This document shows positions 3,357 through 50,510 of a DNA stretch of 64,000 nucleotides, one piece after another. This stretch comes from Bdellovibrio sp. (lineage in GTDB: Bacteria; Bdellovibrionota; Bdellovibrionia; Bdellovibrionales; Bdellovibrionaceae), in contig JANYDD010000053.1 in the NCBI GenBank assembly GCA_025359945.1, forward strand, positions 1 through 64,000, written 5' to 3'. The translations under genes and the position numbers were made by a program. Under the pieces are notes generated by a model that was not told the DNA's origin, did no database searches, and saw only the letters and a program-made list of their open reading frames with translations. Position 1 is the stretch's first letter. Each line of letters begins with the position of its first letter.

Positions 3357-4657
3357 TTATGCGATGGCTTCCCATGGAAAAATCAGGATTGTTTTGTCTT
3401 TGTAGGGTTGAAGAGTTCCGGTCAGTGCGACCATTTTAAAATCTGGGTAAAGATATTTCGTTCGCGCTTTTTGAAAGACTCTTAAAAGTTCAAATTGTTT
3501 CGAGCTTGTTTTTTCTTCCGGAAAAACTTTAATACACATCTCAACAATTTCATTTTTACAGATGCCGAAATCAATAACTTGGCCTTTTGCAGATCGAAAA
3601 TAGTAGATTTTTCTGGTGTGGTTACCACTATAAGAAGTGAGGGCCGGAAGCTCCTGAAAGATCCAAGTTTTTAGCTTTTTGCCAAACGAGCCTCCGAAGA
3701 GTTCTATAAATCCGACATCACAGAAAAAAAATTGATCTTTTCTTGTCCCAGATTGATAGGGACTGATCTGATTGACAACGAAAAGAGTCTTCAGCACGCC
3801 AAGATGTGAATTAATCTTTCGCAAGTCAATGCGAAGATACTTTGCTATGCCTCCGGCTGACGAATCCTCTAAAGTTGCTATCGCACTGAGAATTCTTAAC
3901 AACAATTCAGAATCGACTTTGATCCCCTTAAAGAGGGTAGCGTCTCTTTGAGCCGTCAGTTCAATCCAATCCTGAAGTGCCTGCCTTTTTTCAGATTCGT
4001 CCTTAATTCCGAAAATGCCGGGCATGCCGCCATTTTTTAAATACTTCATAAAATCCCCTCGCGAGACTGGAGGTTTAGAATGCAGAATATTTTTTTGACT
4101 GTTGAGAGGCAAATTTCTAACTTCTGAAAGCATTAAGGGAAAAATACCTACCTATGCACATGACGCCAGCAAATTGGCCTTGTCGAATATTGTCGACTTG
4201 AATGCGCTCCAGTCGAACAAGACAGGTAGGTGGCGTCATGTGCATACGTAAGGAAAAATACGCAAGCGAGAAGCTTTGCCCGTCAACGATTCTCGGATAT
4301 TGGTCAATTTCGAAAACTCGGTGGATCCCAACAAAATAAATTGACCCGGCCTTCTTTGCTCATCCACGACAGCTTTGACGCTATCGAAAAGTGCCGGAAC
4401 CTTCTGGGCCTCATCAATAATTAGCAGTTGACCATTTTCAACATCGCGAACAAAAGTATCCGGATTTTCAGCCGCGAAATTCTTCACCGAAGCCAAATCC
4501 AATGTTTTGTAAAGTCTGTTGATTTTTTCAGGAATTAAATTCTTCACTAAAAATGATTTGCGCCTGTTTGTCGGGGCCCCTGAATCAGCACGACAGGAGA
4601 GAATTTAAGCTTTTTAAGTAGGTTATTCATTACATATCCCGCACGCACGTGGTTCAT
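3357..4657 (-). pseudogene. DUF4143 AAA ATPase, broken by frameshift and element insertion
   Basis: The minus strand encodes a once-complete AAA ATPase of the DUF4143 family. Reading from ATG 4657 gives MNHVRAGYVMNNLLKKLKF and then QGPRQTG of Walker A. Here two extra bases (GC, near 4572) shift the frame; removing them restores GPRQTGKSFLVKNLIP. The second segment (4547-4253) carries Walker B (LLIIDEAQKVPAL) and the sensor-like LLGSTEF. A 106-bp element then interrupts the gene after RIFP. The third segment (4133-3357) carries the DUF4143 C-terminal domain, including a PD-(D/E)XK-like FGICKNEIVEM region. Excising the element with one 8-bp duplication reconnects RIFP to LMLSEVRNLPL. The gene is a pseudogene twice over. 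An intact relative lies at 32628-33773. Confidence 0.85.
4147..4252. mobile_element. 106-bp MITE-like element, copy 1
   Basis: This 106-bp element matches the copy at 21550-21655 at 104 positions (differences at 4176 and 4220). Its 22-bp terminal inverted repeats (4147-4168 and 4231-4252) differ at two positions and share the inner core ATGCACATGACGCCA. It is flanked by a perfect 8-bp direct repeat, GAAAAATA at 4139-4146 and 4253-4260, a typical transposition target duplication. It has no transposase, so it must have been moved in trans. Inserted in the ATPase pseudogene, it introduces a TGA a few codons in. The parental IS family is not recognised. Confidence 0.88.
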
Positions 4658-4675
4658 GGTTTAATTTGCATCCTA

Positions 4676-4945
4676 AATCCTCATGAATAGAAAATCGATT
4701 TTTTTTAAAAGGCTTGGCGCGATCAAGCGATCATTGGGGACCTTTTCTTGAAGTCTTCAAGAATGAATTTCCCCAAGGACGAAGTTGAACTTCTAGACAT
4801 TGGCGGCAAATATGTCGCTGATGTCCCAAAGTTCTCTATGTTACAGACCCTGAAAGAGATGACCAAGTTCGCATCCCCAGCGAAGTTCGAGTCCGAGATC
4901 TCGTCCGCGATATGTTAGCCGATGGGCCAAAAACTTCTGATTGAA
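4676..4945 (+). pseudogene. Decayed partial copy of the alpha/beta hydrolase gene
   Basis: From 4676 the sequence closely repeats the hydrolase start at 2558, including ATCCTCATGAATAGAAAAT, TTGGCGCGATCAAG and TTGGGGACCTTTTCTTGAAG. Similarity fades after about 130 bp but can be followed to a stop at 4938-4940, where an RxRDLVRDMLADGPK-like frame corresponds to the hydrolase segment EDLRIRSQILRKGQK. One extra base near 4706 puts the reading frame out. It is therefore a truncated, frameshifted relic of a duplicate or related gene, not an expressed protein. Confidence 0.75.
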
Positions 4946-20238: not shown

Positions 20239-20620
20239 ATGGAAGGTGCAAAATTATTTTGATCAAAGCGAAAAATCCACGCGATGTTGCTATCGCGGGC
20301 TGCAGGGCCAGCATCTCATAGGAAAAACTTCGAACTGGCTGTGCACGCAAGGGACTTAGGGCAAGGACCAAGCAAAAATAAAACAATAAATAAGGCATCT
20401 AAAAACCAGGTCGTAAATACTTCTTGTTTCAACAAAGACTCCATCGAAATTTATTATAATCATTAGAAAAATTAGAAACCGCTCGGTCCATGCCAAATCT
20501 GAATCTATGTTTGTAAAATGCTTGACGGGCTGGATGGTTAAAATGGAAAAGTGGCCGGCGAATTTATTTTTCGAAAACAGGACCAGTTATCATTGTTGCT
20601 TCTCAATGGAGGACTTAAAA
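20239..20620. other. Intergenic region before the HTH gene
   Basis: About 380 bp between divergently transcribed genes. No coding region with a usual start and Shine-Dalgarno sequence is visible, and no toxin gene that would pair with the downstream antitoxin-like gene. A TTGACG at about 20521 lacks a good -10 partner. AT-rich sequence near 20440-20480 may hold promoters, but none is convincing. Confidence 0.5.
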
Positions 20621-20953
20621 ATGCCAAGAAAAAAGATATCCAAAAAGCACGCCTTCTCCTTGAACGATATACCGACAGTTCAGTTAAAAAGTCGTAAAGG
20701 CATTTCTGAATTCGACCCAGATCTCCGCCTTCAAAAACCTGAATTCATGGCCAATGCTTTGTGGCAGTGCCTTATTGAAAATGACATTTTGGCTTTTAAA
20801 GAAATTCTACGCAGTCATTTAGAGGTCATGAATAAACATCAACTGGCCAAAAAAGCCGGCATTCCACAACGCGCGCTATTTCGAATGCTGTCGCCCGAAG
20901 GCAATCCAACGCTTGAAAACCTTGGCAAAATTATTCATCAGCTCTGCGCTTGA
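20621..20953 (+). CDS. HTH protein, HigA2/addiction-module-antidote-like
   Basis: A 110-residue DNA-binding protein. The C-terminal half (MNKHQLAKKAGIPQRALFRM, then PTLENLGKIIHQL) is the helix-turn-helix of 'probable addiction module antidote' proteins (COG3636 type), with the typical 'S..GNPtl..l.ki...l' ending. The preceding ALWQCLIENDILAFKEILRSHL segment also fits that family. The basic N-terminus (MPRKKISKKHAF) may bind DNA too. ATG 20621 has GGAGG 8 bases upstream; longer in-frame starts add an unlikely Cys-rich stretch. No toxin gene is adjacent, so it is either an orphan antitoxin or a stand-alone regulator. Its 3' end overlaps the convergent HNH gene by 16 bp. Confidence 0.7.
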   Translation: MPRKKISKKHAFSLNDIPTVQLKSRKGISEFDPDLRLQKPEFMANALWQCLIENDILAFKEILRSHLEVMNKHQLAKKAGIPQRALFRMLSPEGNPTLENLGKIIHQLCA

Positions 20954-21828
20954 GAAACTTCTGGCTTGAACTTTGCTTTGACCGAATCCCCCTCTGAATA
21001 GCGAAAGCGATTGTGAGCAGCGCATAGAATTCTAAGGTTTTCGGCCTGGTTTGACCCGCCCGCGAACAATGGGTGTAGATGATCGACTTGAAGATGGAAT
21101 TTCGAGCCGCAAATTTTTCCTGTCTTCTGCTCTTTGTGCTGGCAATGTTGGTCCCGATGTAGAATTTCTTTTTTTAATTTTGGAGTCACTGACTTTAGGG
21201 GTGAGCGATCTGCCTTTTGGGTTTTGTTGAAACGATCGGCAAACGAGATCTGTGAATTGGTATTGAACTGAGTCTTTTGCCCATTGTCCGGAAAAGGCAT
21301 CGAACCTGATTTTTCAATAGGCGCTGAATTCCCGATGATATTTGATACATTTTCTGTTTGGGCCGGTGCCGCAAATTTTGCTTCTTGAGTAATGTTGACT
21401 GCCGCGGTGGCAGTGGAAAAAGACTTGTTAACAGATTTATTAGCTCCTGATTTTGCCACGCATTCAACTGCTGATTCCGCAACTGGTTCAAATCCACATT
21501 CAACCGCGGATTCAGCCACGGATTGGGCCGGCGATTTTACTTCCGTTTTCCTACCTATGCACATGACGCCAGCAAATTCGCCTTGTCGAATATTGTCGAC
21601 TTGAATGCGCTCCAGTCGAACACGACAGGTAGGTGGCGTCATGTGCATACGTAAGTCCGTTTTTGTTGCAGTCTTTTCCTTTGGAATAAATTCTTCATGC
21701 TTATCTGAAAAGCGTACCAAATCCATTAGTTCTAAAATTTCAAATTCAGAAATTAGCGCTCGAAACACCGTCATTTTCAGAAGCGCTGACGACGGAAAAC
21801 ACGCAAACCCCATAAAGACATTATTCAC
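20938..21828 (-). CDS. HNH endonuclease, 5'-truncated, carrying an in-frame 106-bp element
   Basis: The C-terminal 90 residues form an HNH nuclease domain: KKEILHRDQHCQHK, then C-x-x-x-F, QVDHLHPLFAGGSNQAENLR and ILCAAHNRFR, with the catalytic His in VDHLHP and the zinc-type Cys pair. The N-terminal part is short. Relatives I know from Bdellovibrio-type genomes have about 200 more residues ahead, so this is probably a truncated copy. Residues about 58-95 are encoded by the 106-bp element plus its 8-bp duplication (114 bp, 38 codons), which keeps the frame open. A low-complexity VAESAVEC-type repeat follows. The GTG at 21828 lacks a clear Shine-Dalgarno sequence. Expression is uncertain. Confidence 0.6.
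   Translation of the reverse strand: MNNVFMGFACFPSSALLKMTVFRALISEFEILELMDLVRFSDKHEEFIPKEKTATKTDLRMHMTPPTCRVRLERIQVDNIRQGEFAGVMCIGRKTEVKSPAQSVAESAVECGFEPVAESAVECVAKSGANKSVNKSFSTATAAVNITQEAKFAAPAQTENVSNIIGNSAPIEKSGSMPFPDNGQKTQFNTNSQISFADRFNKTQKADRSPLKSVTPKLKKEILHRDQHCQHKEQKTGKICGSKFHLQVDHLHPLFAGGSNQAENLRILCAAHNRFRYSEGDSVKAKFKPEVSQAQS
21550..21655. mobile_element. 106-bp MITE-like element, copy 2
   Basis: The same element as at 4147-4252, with 104 of 106 identical positions. Terminal inverted repeats are at 21550-21571 and 21634-21655. It is flanked by a perfect 8-bp target duplication, TCCGTTTT at 21542-21549 and 21656-21663, different from that of copy 1, which shows two independent insertions. 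On the minus strand it is open in the HNH frame and adds 38 codons including the duplication. Confidence 0.9.
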
Positions 21829-22169
21829 TAGGAATGGTCGGCTTGGTCAGACACTTATTTTTGAGAGCGCAGAAGCTCGTCGTATCGCTAAAAAGCTGTT
21901 GGCCGATGGAAATTTAAGGATTGATCGAATTAACGCAGCTGCGATTCCATCGCCCAATGGAAAGTGGGAATGTCATTTAGCTAGCGCAAATCAAATTCTA
22001 GATTTGTTGGGATCACTAAAGGATTCTGGAAAGCAGGAAATTAATGCGCAACCGCCTCCTGTCGAACTCAGCAGGACTGCTTCAACACTTCATTAGTCGA
22101 AGTGATCTCTTTTTTGAACAGTGCCCTCGCTTTGACATATGCGTGCACCCATCAGAAGATAAAATCTCC
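21829..22169. other. Gap with a coding-like but start-less forward frame
   Basis: Between the HNH gene and the NUDIX gene one forward frame ending at TAG 22094-22096 reads protein-like (GQTLIFESAEARRIAKKLL, then RIDRINAAAIPSPNGKWECH). It has no ATG or GTG nearby in frame; the first ATG lies inside the mobile element. I regard it as a possible gene fragment of unknown family. Nothing else is recognised here. Confidence 0.3.
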
Positions 22170-22730
22170 ATGACAAGAGTGAACCACCAATCCCTCGCCG
22201 CACAAATCATCTCGCACACGACTGCGGACTTGAAAGCCCAGTTCACCGACTGGGCGGGGCTTAGTCTGATCTTGCTTCACCAAAATAACGAACTGGCTCT
22301 GGGATTTATTCGGCGAGCGCAGCAACAGCAGGATCGGTGGTCGGGGCATGTGGCATTTCCCGGCGGGCGGCCCGAGCCCACCGATGCTGATGATTTGCAA
22401 ACCGCGCTTCGCGAAACCCAAGAGGAAACTGGAATTATTCTTCACCCTTCAGATTGGATTGGAAGATTAAATGACGTGCAAGCCCGCGCTTTTGGCGGCA
22501 TGCTTCCTTTTTTTCTGCGGCCGCATGTTTTTTATCTCTCAGAGCAACCTTCGTTGATTTTGAATCCCACCGAGGTCTCGCACTTTTACTGGCGCACTTT
22601 GCGCGATTTACAGGATCAAAAACAGGCGACCACTTACCAAGCATTTCCCGCGATTGCCTTCCCGGATGGCGTACCTCTCTGGGGATTGACGTATCTAATT
22701 TTGAACGATCTTTTGAGTCGACTGAAGTAA
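22170..22730 (+). CDS. NUDIX hydrolase, CoA pyrophosphatase subfamily
   Basis: A 186-residue NUDIX enzyme of the CoA/acyl-CoA diphosphatase type, which splits CoA into 4'-phosphopantetheine and 3',5'-ADP. The box is GHVAFPGGRPEPTDADD followed by ALRETQEETGI, with the PTD insertion typical of this subfamily and the REtqEEtG metal site. Upstream, GLSLILLHQ and LGFIRRAQQQQDRWSGH fit the conserved 'R...l..H.GqvsFPGG' region. ATG 22170 was chosen because the family begins here; in-frame codons upstream look non-coding. It precedes gspE by 81 bp on the same strand but has no obvious T2SS link. Confidence 0.85.
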   Translation: MTRVNHQSLAAQIISHTTADLKAQFTDWAGLSLILLHQNNELALGFIRRAQQQQDRWSGHVAFPGGRPEPTDADDLQTALRETQEETGIILHPSDWIGRLNDVQARAFGGMLPFFLRPHVFYLSEQPSLILNPTEVSHFYWRTLRDLQDQKQATTYQAFPAIAFPDGVPLWGLTYLILNDLLSRLK

Positions 22731-22811
22731 GATTCGTTCCCCCTGGATTTGGGCCAAGGATTTACCCTTAAAGCTTGATCATTCACCACTCTGTTCCCTA
22801 CAATAAAGGGA

Positions 22812-24506
22812 ATGGCTCAACAACTTGATCTGACTCAGATTCTTACCAAAGCCACTTCGCTTAGCTCTCAGCAGGTGCAATTGGTTCTAAAAACCCAAAG
22901 TGTCAGTCAAATGTATTCCATCGGGGATCTGTTGGGGAATAAAGAATTCGCAAATGCCGATGAATTGGTCCAGGACCTTTGTCGAGAAATGGGAATGGAA
23001 TTTATGCGCGATATTCCCGTTAATGACATCCCAATGAATTTAGTTCGCCCGCTGAATATCACTTACGCAAAAAATTATTCAGTGCTGCCCTTCCGCGAGG
23101 AATCCGACCAAGTCATTGTTTTGACCGCCAACCCAGTGCAAACAAAAGCCCTGGATGACCTTCGCGTTTTGTACGGAAAAAAAATCAAAACCGTTGTAAC
23201 GACCGCGCCCAAATTAAACGATGCCATCAATAAAGTTTTCGAAAAAAGCACCGCAGATCTTGAGGGCATGGACGACATCGAAATGGAAGAATATGATTTG
23301 GACAATCCCATTGTCGATCTTCTTGAAGGCGGCGAAGACGACGCGCCGGTGATCAAATTAGTTAACTCGCTGCTGTTTCGCGCAGTCAAAGAAAAAGCTT
23401 CGGACATTCACGTTGAACCTTACGAAAAAGACATGTCGGTGCGATTTCGCATCGATGGCGTGCTGTTTGATATTTTTAAACCGCCCAAAAAATTGCAAAA
23501 TGCCATTACCTCGCGCCTAAAAGTAATGGCCAATTTAAATATTGCCGAGAAACGATTGCCTCAAGACGGTCGAATACCATTGAAGCTGGGCGGGAAAGAT
23601 ATTGATATTCGGGTCTCGACAGTGCCGACTTCTTTCGGAGAGCGTATCGTGATGAGGATTCAAGATCGATCCAATGTGATTTTCGAGCTTGAACAATTAG
23701 GATTTTCTGATGACTCATTGGTAAATATCGACGAACTGATCAAACGCAGTTACGGAATTTTACTAGTCACCGGGCCCACCGGATCTGGAAAGTCGACCAC
23801 TTTGTATGCGTTTTTATCGCGCTTGAATTCTCCGGACGTGAACATCCTGACCATCGAAGATCCCGTCGAGCAACGCGTGCACGGCGTGGGACAAGTTCAA
23901 GTCAACGCTAAAATAGGGCTGACGTTTGCCTCGGGCTTGCGGTCCTTTTTGCGGCAGGATCCCGATATAATTATGGTCGGAGAAATTCGAGACTTGGAAA
24001 CTTCCGAGCTTTCGATCACGGCATCGATGACGGGGCACTTGGTTCTATCCACCTTGCATACGAACGACGCCGCCGGAGCTTTCCCCAGGCTTTTAGATAT
24101 CGGGGCCGAACCTTTTCTGGTGGCCACTTCAATTTTGGGTGTGGTGGCTCAGCGCCTAGTGCGTGTGCTTTGTCCCCATTGCAAAATCAGACACGAGCCC
24201 AATGACTTTGAAATGAACTCACTTGGAATTTCGCCCGAAGAAGTTTCCACCAACAATATTTGCAAAGCCGTTGGTTGTTCTCAGTGTAATCAAAAAGGAT
24301 ATATCGGTCGAACTTTGATTCAAGAATTACTTTTAGTCGATGACGATATTCGTTCGCTGATTATGCAACGAAAAGATGGTAACAGCATCCGCAAATTGGC
24401 CGTGGCCAAAGGGATGAAAACATTCCGAGATCACGGCATTCAAAAAGTTCTAACGGGCATCACTACGATGGAAGAACTTTTAGCTAATACTCAGTTAGAT
24501 CTGTAA
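22812..24506 (+). CDS. gspE: Type II secretion system ATPase GspE
   Basis: The 564-residue cytoplasmic hexameric ATPase that powers pseudopilus assembly. It has an N-terminal MshEN/T2SSE-N domain (about 1-150), then the N2 domain (KEKASDIHVEPYEKDMSVRF) and the core ATPase: Walker A GPTGSGKSTT from residue 321, the Asp box with TIEDPVEQ, Walker B DPDIIMVGEIRD and the His box LVLSTLHTNDA. The zinc-binding loop has two CxxC pairs (CPHC near 454 and CSQC near 487). All catalytic elements are intact. It starts the second T2SS block, separated from gspD by about 3.9 kb. Confidence 0.97.
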   Translation: MAQQLDLTQILTKATSLSSQQVQLVLKTQSVSQMYSIGDLLGNKEFANADELVQDLCREMGMEFMRDIPVNDIPMNLVRPLNITYAKNYSVLPFREESDQVIVLTANPVQTKALDDLRVLYGKKIKTVVTTAPKLNDAINKVFEKSTADLEGMDDIEMEEYDLDNPIVDLLEGGEDDAPVIKLVNSLLFRAVKEKASDIHVEPYEKDMSVRFRIDGVLFDIFKPPKKLQNAITSRLKVMANLNIAEKRLPQDGRIPLKLGGKDIDIRVSTVPTSFGERIVMRIQDRSNVIFELEQLGFSDDSLVNIDELIKRSYGILLVTGPTGSGKSTTLYAFLSRLNSPDVNILTIEDPVEQRVHGVGQVQVNAKIGLTFASGLRSFLRQDPDIIMVGEIRDLETSELSITASMTGHLVLSTLHTNDAAGAFPRLLDIGAEPFLVATSILGVVAQRLVRVLCPHCKIRHEPNDFEMNSLGISPEEVSTNNICKAVGCSQCNQKGYIGRTLIQELLLVDDDIRSLIMQRKDGNSIRKLAVAKGMKTFRDHGIQKVLTGITTMEELLANTQLDL

Positions 24507-48305: not shown

Positions 48306-48725
48306 TTAGATAGTTTTGGAAAGTCGCGAGGGCAACTGCGCCGTGACTTCTTCTAAACGCGCCGAAGTAATTGTTGGCAGATTTTCTGGACGCAGATTCA
48401 ACGCATACGGATTATTTTTTTTCTTTTCGAAAAATAATTTAACTTTCTCGGCAGCCCGAGTGGGACTATTCAAATAAACAACAGGATCAAATCCACACGA
48501 GCGACAAATAATTCCTAGGCGCCATCGCACTTGAATAAACATTTCCGTCACAAGCATAAAAATTAAAAAAACAATGATAAAGCGAAAATCAAATCGCATC
48601 CAAAATAGACCCATAAACATCAGCGATCCAACGAAGGACGCTAAAATATTAAAAGAATTGGTTCGTCGTTTGAGATAAACTTTTCTGGGCGTTTTGCAAA
48701 ACGCGCAAAAGCAATTTTTTTTCAA
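48306..48725 (-). CDS. Zinc-ribbon membrane protein
   Basis: A protein of about 139 residues. It begins KKNCFCAFCKTPRKVYLK with a CxxC pair. Two membrane helices follow (about 28-42 and 46-64), then a second CxxC (IICRSCGF), so two Cys pairs could form one zinc ribbon bridging the membrane hairpin. The C-terminus is soluble. No function is known. The TTG at 48725 was preferred because GGAGAG is 9 bases upstream; a TTG two codons earlier is too close. A decayed inverted copy of its 5' end lies at 50408-50510. Confidence 0.7.
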   Translation of the reverse strand: MKKNCFCAFCKTPRKVYLKRRTNSFNILASFVGSLMFMGLFWMRFDFRFIIVFLIFMLVTEMFIQVRWRLGIICRSCGFDPVVYLNSPTRAAEKVKLFFEKKKNNPYALNLRPENLPTITSARLEEVTAQLPSRLSKTI

Positions 48726-49798: not shown

Positions 49799-50407
49799 AT
49801 GAACGCCATGAAATTTCACCTTAAAGACTTGTTCAATTTGCTGATCAAGTTTTTAAAAAATCCTATTGATGAAATCAAATCTCCTCCGGACTGGGGCTGG
49901 AAAAAGCTTCTGGTCACCCATGTTTTGATTACCTTTGTGGTGGGATTTTTTTTGACCTTGCTTGAAATGGGATTTACCAGCCGCGAATTTTCGATGACTG
50001 GATTAGTTTTAGGAACTACATCTCGCGTGATCCTGACTTTTTTTACCGCAATGATAACAAGTTTATTTTTCTTTTATTCGCTTCAAGTTTTTATGGATCA
50101 AAAAGTTCTGTTTCGAAAAATATTTACAGTGGTCTTCTTTTCACTTTTGCCTTTTTTTATTTTTCAAATTGTCAGGCCGTTTTCATCGGTGGTCGACTTG
50201 ATTGGCTTTGGATTTACCGCTTTTTTATTGATTGTAGGATTGGTTGAAAATTTTAGTCTCGAGAAAAAAGTAGCTATAAAACTGATCGGGGCTCTTTACG
50301 CGCTATTTTTTGTTGTCTGGTTGATTGGACACTTGGATGAAGACCGAAGCAGCCGAAATATCGACAAAATTAAATGGCAAGCCCCAGAAGTTCAGCTGGG
50401 AAATTAA
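49799..50407 (+). CDS. Yip1-like integral membrane protein
   Basis: A 202-residue protein with five predicted membrane helices (about 38-58, 65-95, 105-122, 128-148 and 157-177). The N-terminal LKNPIDEIKSPPDWGWKKLL resembles the opening of Yip1-domain proteins (pfam 'YIP1' has 'NP..ff......'). The function is unknown. Immediately after its stop lies the relic of the zinc-ribbon gene on the same strand. Confidence 0.65.
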   Translation: MNAMKFHLKDLFNLLIKFLKNPIDEIKSPPDWGWKKLLVTHVLITFVVGFFLTLLEMGFTSREFSMTGLVLGTTSRVILTFFTAMITSLFFFYSLQVFMDQKVLFRKIFTVVFFSLLPFFIFQIVRPFSSVVDLIGFGFTAFLLIVGLVENFSLEKKVAIKLIGALYALFFVVWLIGHLDEDRSSRNIDKIKWQAPEVQLGN

Positions 50408-50510
50408 AAAAATTGCTTTTGCGTGTTTTGCAAAACGCAAAGAAACGTTTATCTTAAAACGCCTTACCACTTCGTTTAATACTTTACCTTTTTTTTCCAA
50501 TTTTTGATCG
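50408..50510 (+). pseudogene. Relic of a second zinc-ribbon gene
   Basis: The forward sequence from about 50408 closely matches the reverse complement of 48728-48655, the start of the zinc-ribbon gene: both have AAATTGCTTTTGCG, GTTTTGCAAAACGC and GTTTATCT at the same spacing. Adding one A to the 7-A run restores NCFCVFCKTQRNVYLK, equivalent to NCFCAFCKTPRKVYLK. The frame then stops after a few codons. So this is a frameshifted, truncated duplicate in inverted orientation, not a working gene. Confidence 0.65.

Follow-up and report, generated by a model that had tools for sequence, protein, structure and literature searches.

When a small mobile element lands in a gene and the reading frame runs straight through it, is the inserted sequence used as protein, or is it an insertion that the gene merely tolerates? 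This question is raised by a 64,000-nucleotide stretch of Bdellovibrio DNA (hereafter the window), in which a short palindromic segment is read in frame inside an ORF with a C-terminal HNH domain. Taking the evidence together, we are confident that the segment belongs to a MITE family that was probably moved by an IS1595 transposase and multiplied recently, that its disruptive copies have probably been purged more often, and that its in-frame copies look roughly neutral.

The element and its copies

The 106-bp segment is a non-autonomous transposon of the MITE type. The window contains two copies, and the features discussed below are:

3360..4604 (limits approximate), minus strand: gene broken by copy 1; the downstream piece matches DUF4143 (PF13635) and the upstream piece is ATPase-like by eye
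4147..4252, plus strand: MITE copy 1, 98% identical to copy 2, with the 8-bp target-site duplication GAAAAATA on both sides
20938..21828, minus strand: ORF that stays open across the element, with an HNH domain at its C-terminus; 302 codons from stop to stop, 296 aa when read from GTG, 258 aa without the 38 added codons
21019..21114, minus strand: HNH core, residues 239-270 (Pfam PF01844, E = 4.8e-5, above the cut-off)
21542..21549, no strand: target-site duplication TCCGTTTT, left copy
21550..21655, plus strand: MITE copy 2, 106 bp, with no difference from the consensus of its genome's 41 near-full copies
21550..21570, plus strand: left terminal inverted repeat CCTACCTATGCACATGACGCC, 21 bp
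21635..21655, minus strand: right terminal inverted repeat, read on the minus strand as CTTACGTATGCACATGACGCC, matching the left repeat at 19/21 positions
21656..21663, no strand: target-site duplication TCCGTTTT, right copy

The preliminary description had placed the insertion at 21542-21663 and its size, with the duplication, at 114 bp. Both are exact: the two 8-bp repeats at 21542-21549 and 21656-21663 enclose the element at 21550-21655, and 106 bp of element plus 8 bp of duplication make 114 bp, or 38 codons. The segment is typical of MITEs in being short, in lacking a transposase gene (it has one open stretch of 35 codons), in its 21-bp terminal inverted repeats and fixed-length duplication, and in its many dispersed, near-identical copies. 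A single strand folds as one long hairpin (-48.7 and -51.1 kcal/mol for the two strands). Folded as RNA, the strands reach z = -7.5 and -7.2, and none of 200 shuffles was equally stable, which puts the palindrome far beyond chance.

The genome holds 41 near-full copies and five truncated ones (C13:2842, C20, C41, C57 and C63). A genome search alone returns 40 copies; reading of the loci brings the near-full count to 41, the added copy being a diverged neighbour on contig C13. Differences from the consensus are few, with none in 14 copies, one in 16, two in 8, four in 2 and seven in 1, hence 30 of the 41 differ at one position at most. A perfect 8-bp duplication flanks 35 copies, and the other six have an 8-bp repeat with one mismatch (one copy), a 7-bp repeat (one copy) or none (four copies, among them L015, whose last two bases are cut off by another insertion sequence). 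For two of the four copies without a repeat the flanks pair with the flanks of other copies, which could reflect recombination or misassembly of a 106-bp repeat.

Some further repeats were seen in passing. Near contig edges, MITE copies are interrupted by other insertion sequences (L041-L043, L015 and L037, on C20, C41, C57, C96 and C13), one with the end TAGTAGGTAAC after TA and another starting with GTAACTACTCACC. IS66 and IS630, labels that we assigned by eye, were rejected as parents of the MITE: at contig ends, sequences of the two types sit inside MITE copies and interrupt them, as later insertions. A second palindromic element on C63 (L044, ~905-1015), with ends ACCAGCTTATGCACATGGCTACC, has the core TATGCACATG in common with the MITE and is a possible sister family. 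Elsewhere in the window, 53-nt inverted repeats at 48669-48721 and 50406-50458 (91% complementary, 1684 nt apart) may be where a further insertion sequence or transposon has its ends, and the segments 2557-2654 and 4675-4773, 2.1 kb apart, are duplicated (93% and 97% identical).

A candidate helper transposase and the spread of the element

What moves an element that has no transposase of its own? In a relative, Bdellovibrionaceae bacterium UBA2316 (G060), an insertion sequence of ~950 bp encodes a 291-aa transposase of the IS1595 family (PF12762, E = 3.4e-19, with PF12760; NF033547, E = 3.1e-34), comprising a Zn ribbon and a DDE domain. It is bounded by MITE-like ends, matching those of the MITE at 20/21 positions on the left and 18/21 on the right. 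This is the one complete copy in a relative, and a flanking 8-bp duplication is absent from it. Pfam models found no intact IS1595 transposase in the assembly of the MITE's own genome, and on C40 a single distant remnant. With the G060 protein as query, 36 near-C-terminal codons, 94% identical, were recovered at the contig edges of C20, C47 and C69, and an N-terminal fragment (residues 2-29 at 68% identity) at a fourth edge, C34. The DNA past these fragments ends in CCAACCTATGCACTTGACGCA, which matches the left end of the MITE at 18/21 positions and the right end at 16/21.

The MITE therefore has its ends in common with an autonomous element, in the relative and in its own genome. It also resembles IS1595 insertion sequences in its 8-bp duplications, which passages of PMC8101967, and of PMC7835479 for ISEc69, give as usual for this family. 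Because the ends match, the duplications are of 8 bp and a transposase is bounded by near-identical ends, we infer that an IS1595-family transposase probably mobilises the MITE in trans, acting on its 21-bp ends and on 8-bp target sites. The MITE differs from these insertion sequences in being without a transposase and would be a 106-bp derivative or mimic, as compared by its ends. The IS1595 ends in its own genome fit the MITE more poorly than do the ends in G060, which leaves each of these transposases a candidate helper. The IS1595 copies of this genome are cut by contig ends. The right flank at C47, GTAAAAAT, is the left flank at contig C127 of another genome, G088, and this common 8-bp flank possibly marks one insertion event.

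A family-wide search gave matches in 2 of 66 genomes, namely its own and, as the end of the insertion sequence, G060, and a class-wide search in 3 of 143; G031 also carries such ends. Among plasmid records a 126-base query had no element match. No viral contig carried the left-end pattern, and four stretches of genome contigs did. The genome G088 (a MAG, Pseudobdellovibrionaceae bacterium 336R, by coordinates the same genome as G123) is placed in another family of the same order and has two copies, one identical to that of the window and the other different at one base. When 19.9 kb of the window is compared with G088 outside the element, the longer matches span 253 and 155 bases at 73% and 67% identity, and two matches of ~31 bases are 97% and 94% identical. 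An identical element in diverged surroundings points to a recent transfer, as judged from these alignments, the alternative being misbinned contigs in the MAG. Among Bdellovibrionales the identical copy may serve to mark a recent exchange of DNA.

The open frame and the genes it enters

One of the six frames of the element, on the minus strand, is stop-free. Among random sequences of the same length and composition, 37% have one and only one open frame, or 45% when the terminal repeats are fixed, so the open frame needs no special explanation. With a length of 114 bp and one such frame, about one genic insertion in six would be expected to stay open, adding 38 residues that include RLERIQVDNIRQGEFAGVMCIG. 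The divisible-by-three length and the single open frame are probably accidents that lessen the harm done by the element, and a selected coding role is unnecessary.

In the HNH ORF the minus-strand frame had been described as open across the insertion with 38 codons added, and indeed the ORF at 21828-20938 crosses the element without a stop. The early TGA that had been noted for copy 1 is there as well: the gene frame reads about five residues (PYVCT) and then TGA.

Is the HNH ORF a good host in which to ask what the insert does? The element lies ahead of the HNH core, in a part of the ORF that the family does not conserve. When 15 ORFs of the family (one a paralogue from the same genome, the other 14 from relatives; most with a common N-terminal part, L051 being short) are combined in a profile, only its last, C-terminal third (positions 226-320 of 322) finds a match in the ORF, and no other stretch of 20501-23500, in any frame, falls below E = 0.5. 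The conserved N-terminal domain of the family is missing and the NCBIfam IscB match is far under its cut-off (25.8 against 175 bits). The ORF may therefore be a decaying fragment without a working translated protein, in which an open frame would be meaningless, and in our judgement the chances for and against this are evenly balanced. Against it, the HNH core is intact and above the Pfam cut-off, and the codons used speak for the HNH frame, both in the linker (0.265 per codon) and upstream of the element (0.168), less so in the core (0.044) (element, -0.081; known coding sequence, 0.228, sd 0.119). The frame is probably coding now or was until recently. By the profile comparison the gene is 5'-truncated relative to its family, and for this reason the HNH site is one of the poorer in-frame examples.

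Homologues that lack the insert support in-frame insertion at three other loci, cleanly at L038 and L100 and loosely at L005. L038 lies in an ORF of 582 residues, and a paralogue on C33 of the same genome, 30% identical to it along residues 38-425, has an alignment gap that coincides exactly with the insert. This copy has four differences from the consensus, all in the terminal repeats, and a weaker hairpin (-42.5 against -51.1 kcal/mol); among genic copies with clean duplications it has diverged furthest, and its frame is open. At L100, in G088, the insert divides PYLGAFAHL from the stretch leading to HVHP, and in the three plasmid homologues, all of which were read (25-30% identity), YLGALGHL continues without an insert; one of them, L123, has no annotated gene in that frame in its record. 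L005 lies in an ORF of 344 residues whose start is signal-peptide-like by eye. Two homologues from G042, a genome without a match to the element, span the site at 25-30% identity and are 25 and 43 residues shorter there; two further, shorter ones each cover one side. In the spanning homologues, part of the insert is faced by unrelated residues and the border is not clean, so L005 was set aside as a clean case.

The remaining open sites are L003, L034 and L026. L003 was rejected as a clean example, as the gene is apparently frameshifted upstream (by eye), though DUF4423 matches on both sides of the insert, in two stretches. At L034 the insertion lies at a likely start codon and may just extend the N-terminus or leave the native start usable. 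L026 is a small low-complexity ORF with the insertion 14 codons ahead of its stop.

Open and broken insertion sites

For site statistics we used the 35 clean sites with a perfect 8-bp duplication, leaving out L009, L010, L015, L023, L035 and the diverged C13:743-844 copy on L037. At L023, which has the 7-bp repeat, an oxidoreductase gene is split. An ORF caller places 17 of the 35 sites in genes (27 expected) and 18 outside called genes. The genic sites are:

open (6): L011 (HNH ORF), L003, L005, L026, L034, L038
broken (11): L001, L002, L008, L016, L021, L028, L029 (at the very end of its gene), L031, L033, L036, L040

Random placement in the same loci makes 78% of insertions genic and leaves 16.5% of the genic ones open. 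For ORFs of at least 100 aa this predicts 22.8 broken and 4.5 open sites, and the depletion of broken sites has P = 5e-5. The result is similar with a limit of at least 150 aa (21.7 and 4.4 expected, P = 2.5e-4) or with target-sequence weighting (22.5 and 4.3, P = 8e-5). The depletion was computed with a crude ORF caller, from sequence no farther than ~1.3 kb from the sites, and could in part reflect that the element prefers AT-rich intergenic DNA over and above its 8-bp target. Open sites are not in excess, with six observed against ~4.5 expected from random insertion. As a share of genic sites they exceed the expected ~1/6 marginally (6/17; P = 0.049, 0.052 or 0.042, depending on the null). 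Without the HNH site that prompted this work the share is 5/16 (P = 0.11), also without the two gene-edge sites it is 4/14 (P = 0.19), and when L005 and L038 only are set against the 11 broken sites P = 0.66. The open cases are not convincingly enriched.

The MITE multiplied recently, landing both inside and outside genes. Gene-breaking insertions were probably purged more often, as their depletion suggests, and in-frame insertions, being about as frequent as random insertion predicts, look roughly neutral. The proposal of the preliminary description that a small mobile element can be tolerated as coding sequence in one frame is thus borne out in part: it holds for L038 and L100 and more loosely for L005, which also means that copies do lie in other genes in the same frame, whereas 11 of the 17 genic clean sites are broken and the in-frame share is marginal.

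Could the element act mainly as an RNA hairpin (an RNase III site, attenuator or terminator) and not through a coding frame? The very stable fold on either strand and the 18 clean sites that are not in a called gene are in line with this, and such action is among the proposals for Neisseria elements in the relevant part of PMC2229807. That said, a palindromic transposon folds in this way whatever its role, and an Rfam scan of 20500-22800 gave no match of value, the only hit, to a microRNA family, scoring 25.9 bits where the cut-off is 99. We consider this explanation improbable. A little more doubtful still is a bolder idea, that a horizontally moving IS1595-type MITE had its 114-bp length and stop-free frame selected since in-frame copies escape purging, making it a mobile 38-residue insert that spreads between families and can land in conserved host motifs. 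The least likely account is that the frame is kept open for its usefulness, the element persisting as a translated, tolerated or beneficial insert with selection on the peptide: the 6/17 share, the open frame of L038 despite its divergence and weaker hairpin, and the use of the same frame by L100 in another genome speak for it, but the share loses significance as sites are removed, chance alone gives one open frame, and the copies are too similar to reveal selection on the peptide.

The idea of in-frame, protein-coding mobile palindromes is already in print: PMC10969869 and PMC2229807 show that palindromic MITEs insert in frame in Rickettsia, and the same is described there of the ERIC, Correia and Yersinia elements. 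The Rickettsia palindromic elements (RPE) are close in description, being ~105-150 bp long and palindromic, with an open frame, and lying in frame inside unrelated protein genes (both sources, in part), as is found here at L038 and L100 and, loosely, L005. A Rickettsia guanylate kinase carrying such an insert is reported, in excerpts of the same two papers, to be translated and enzymatically active. There are also differences. The present element has clear 8-bp duplications and an IS family that matches it, whereas PMC2229807 lists the RPE duplication as unknown. Most of the genic copies at clean sites break their gene here, whereas in R. conorii nearly half of 44 copies lie in ORFs able to form fusions, according to PMC10969869. 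The Correia/NEMIS element of 107 bp, ERIC (127 bp) and the Yersinia YPAL (168 bp) have other hosts. QMITE1 and QMITE2 of Coxiella burnetii are alike in having ~50 copies each and some in-frame insertions, and differ in their length of 150-400 bp and duplications of 2-3 or 7-11 nt (PMC5896051, in part).

In the open-licence literature and in plasmid and viral collections we found neither a published Bdellovibrio MITE nor an account of the present family. The element is a fresh, recently amplified case outside the reviewed groups, and it allows the in-frame insertions of a single element to be tallied against its disruptive ones. Are coding-compatible palindromes selected, or do they merely survive? 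This question becomes a count across more genomes.

Two further copies touch the starts of genes. At L014 (C9:11551) a copy lies directly 5' of a likely start codon, and its end TACGTAAG followed by GAAACCATG could, by eye, be a new ribosome-binding site. At L096 (2020-2523, contig C7 of G088) a plus-strand ATG of the element (MRSSRTRQVGGVMCIRK) is in frame with a downstream ORF that has a cysteine-rich motif and is, again by eye, perhaps a transposase remnant.
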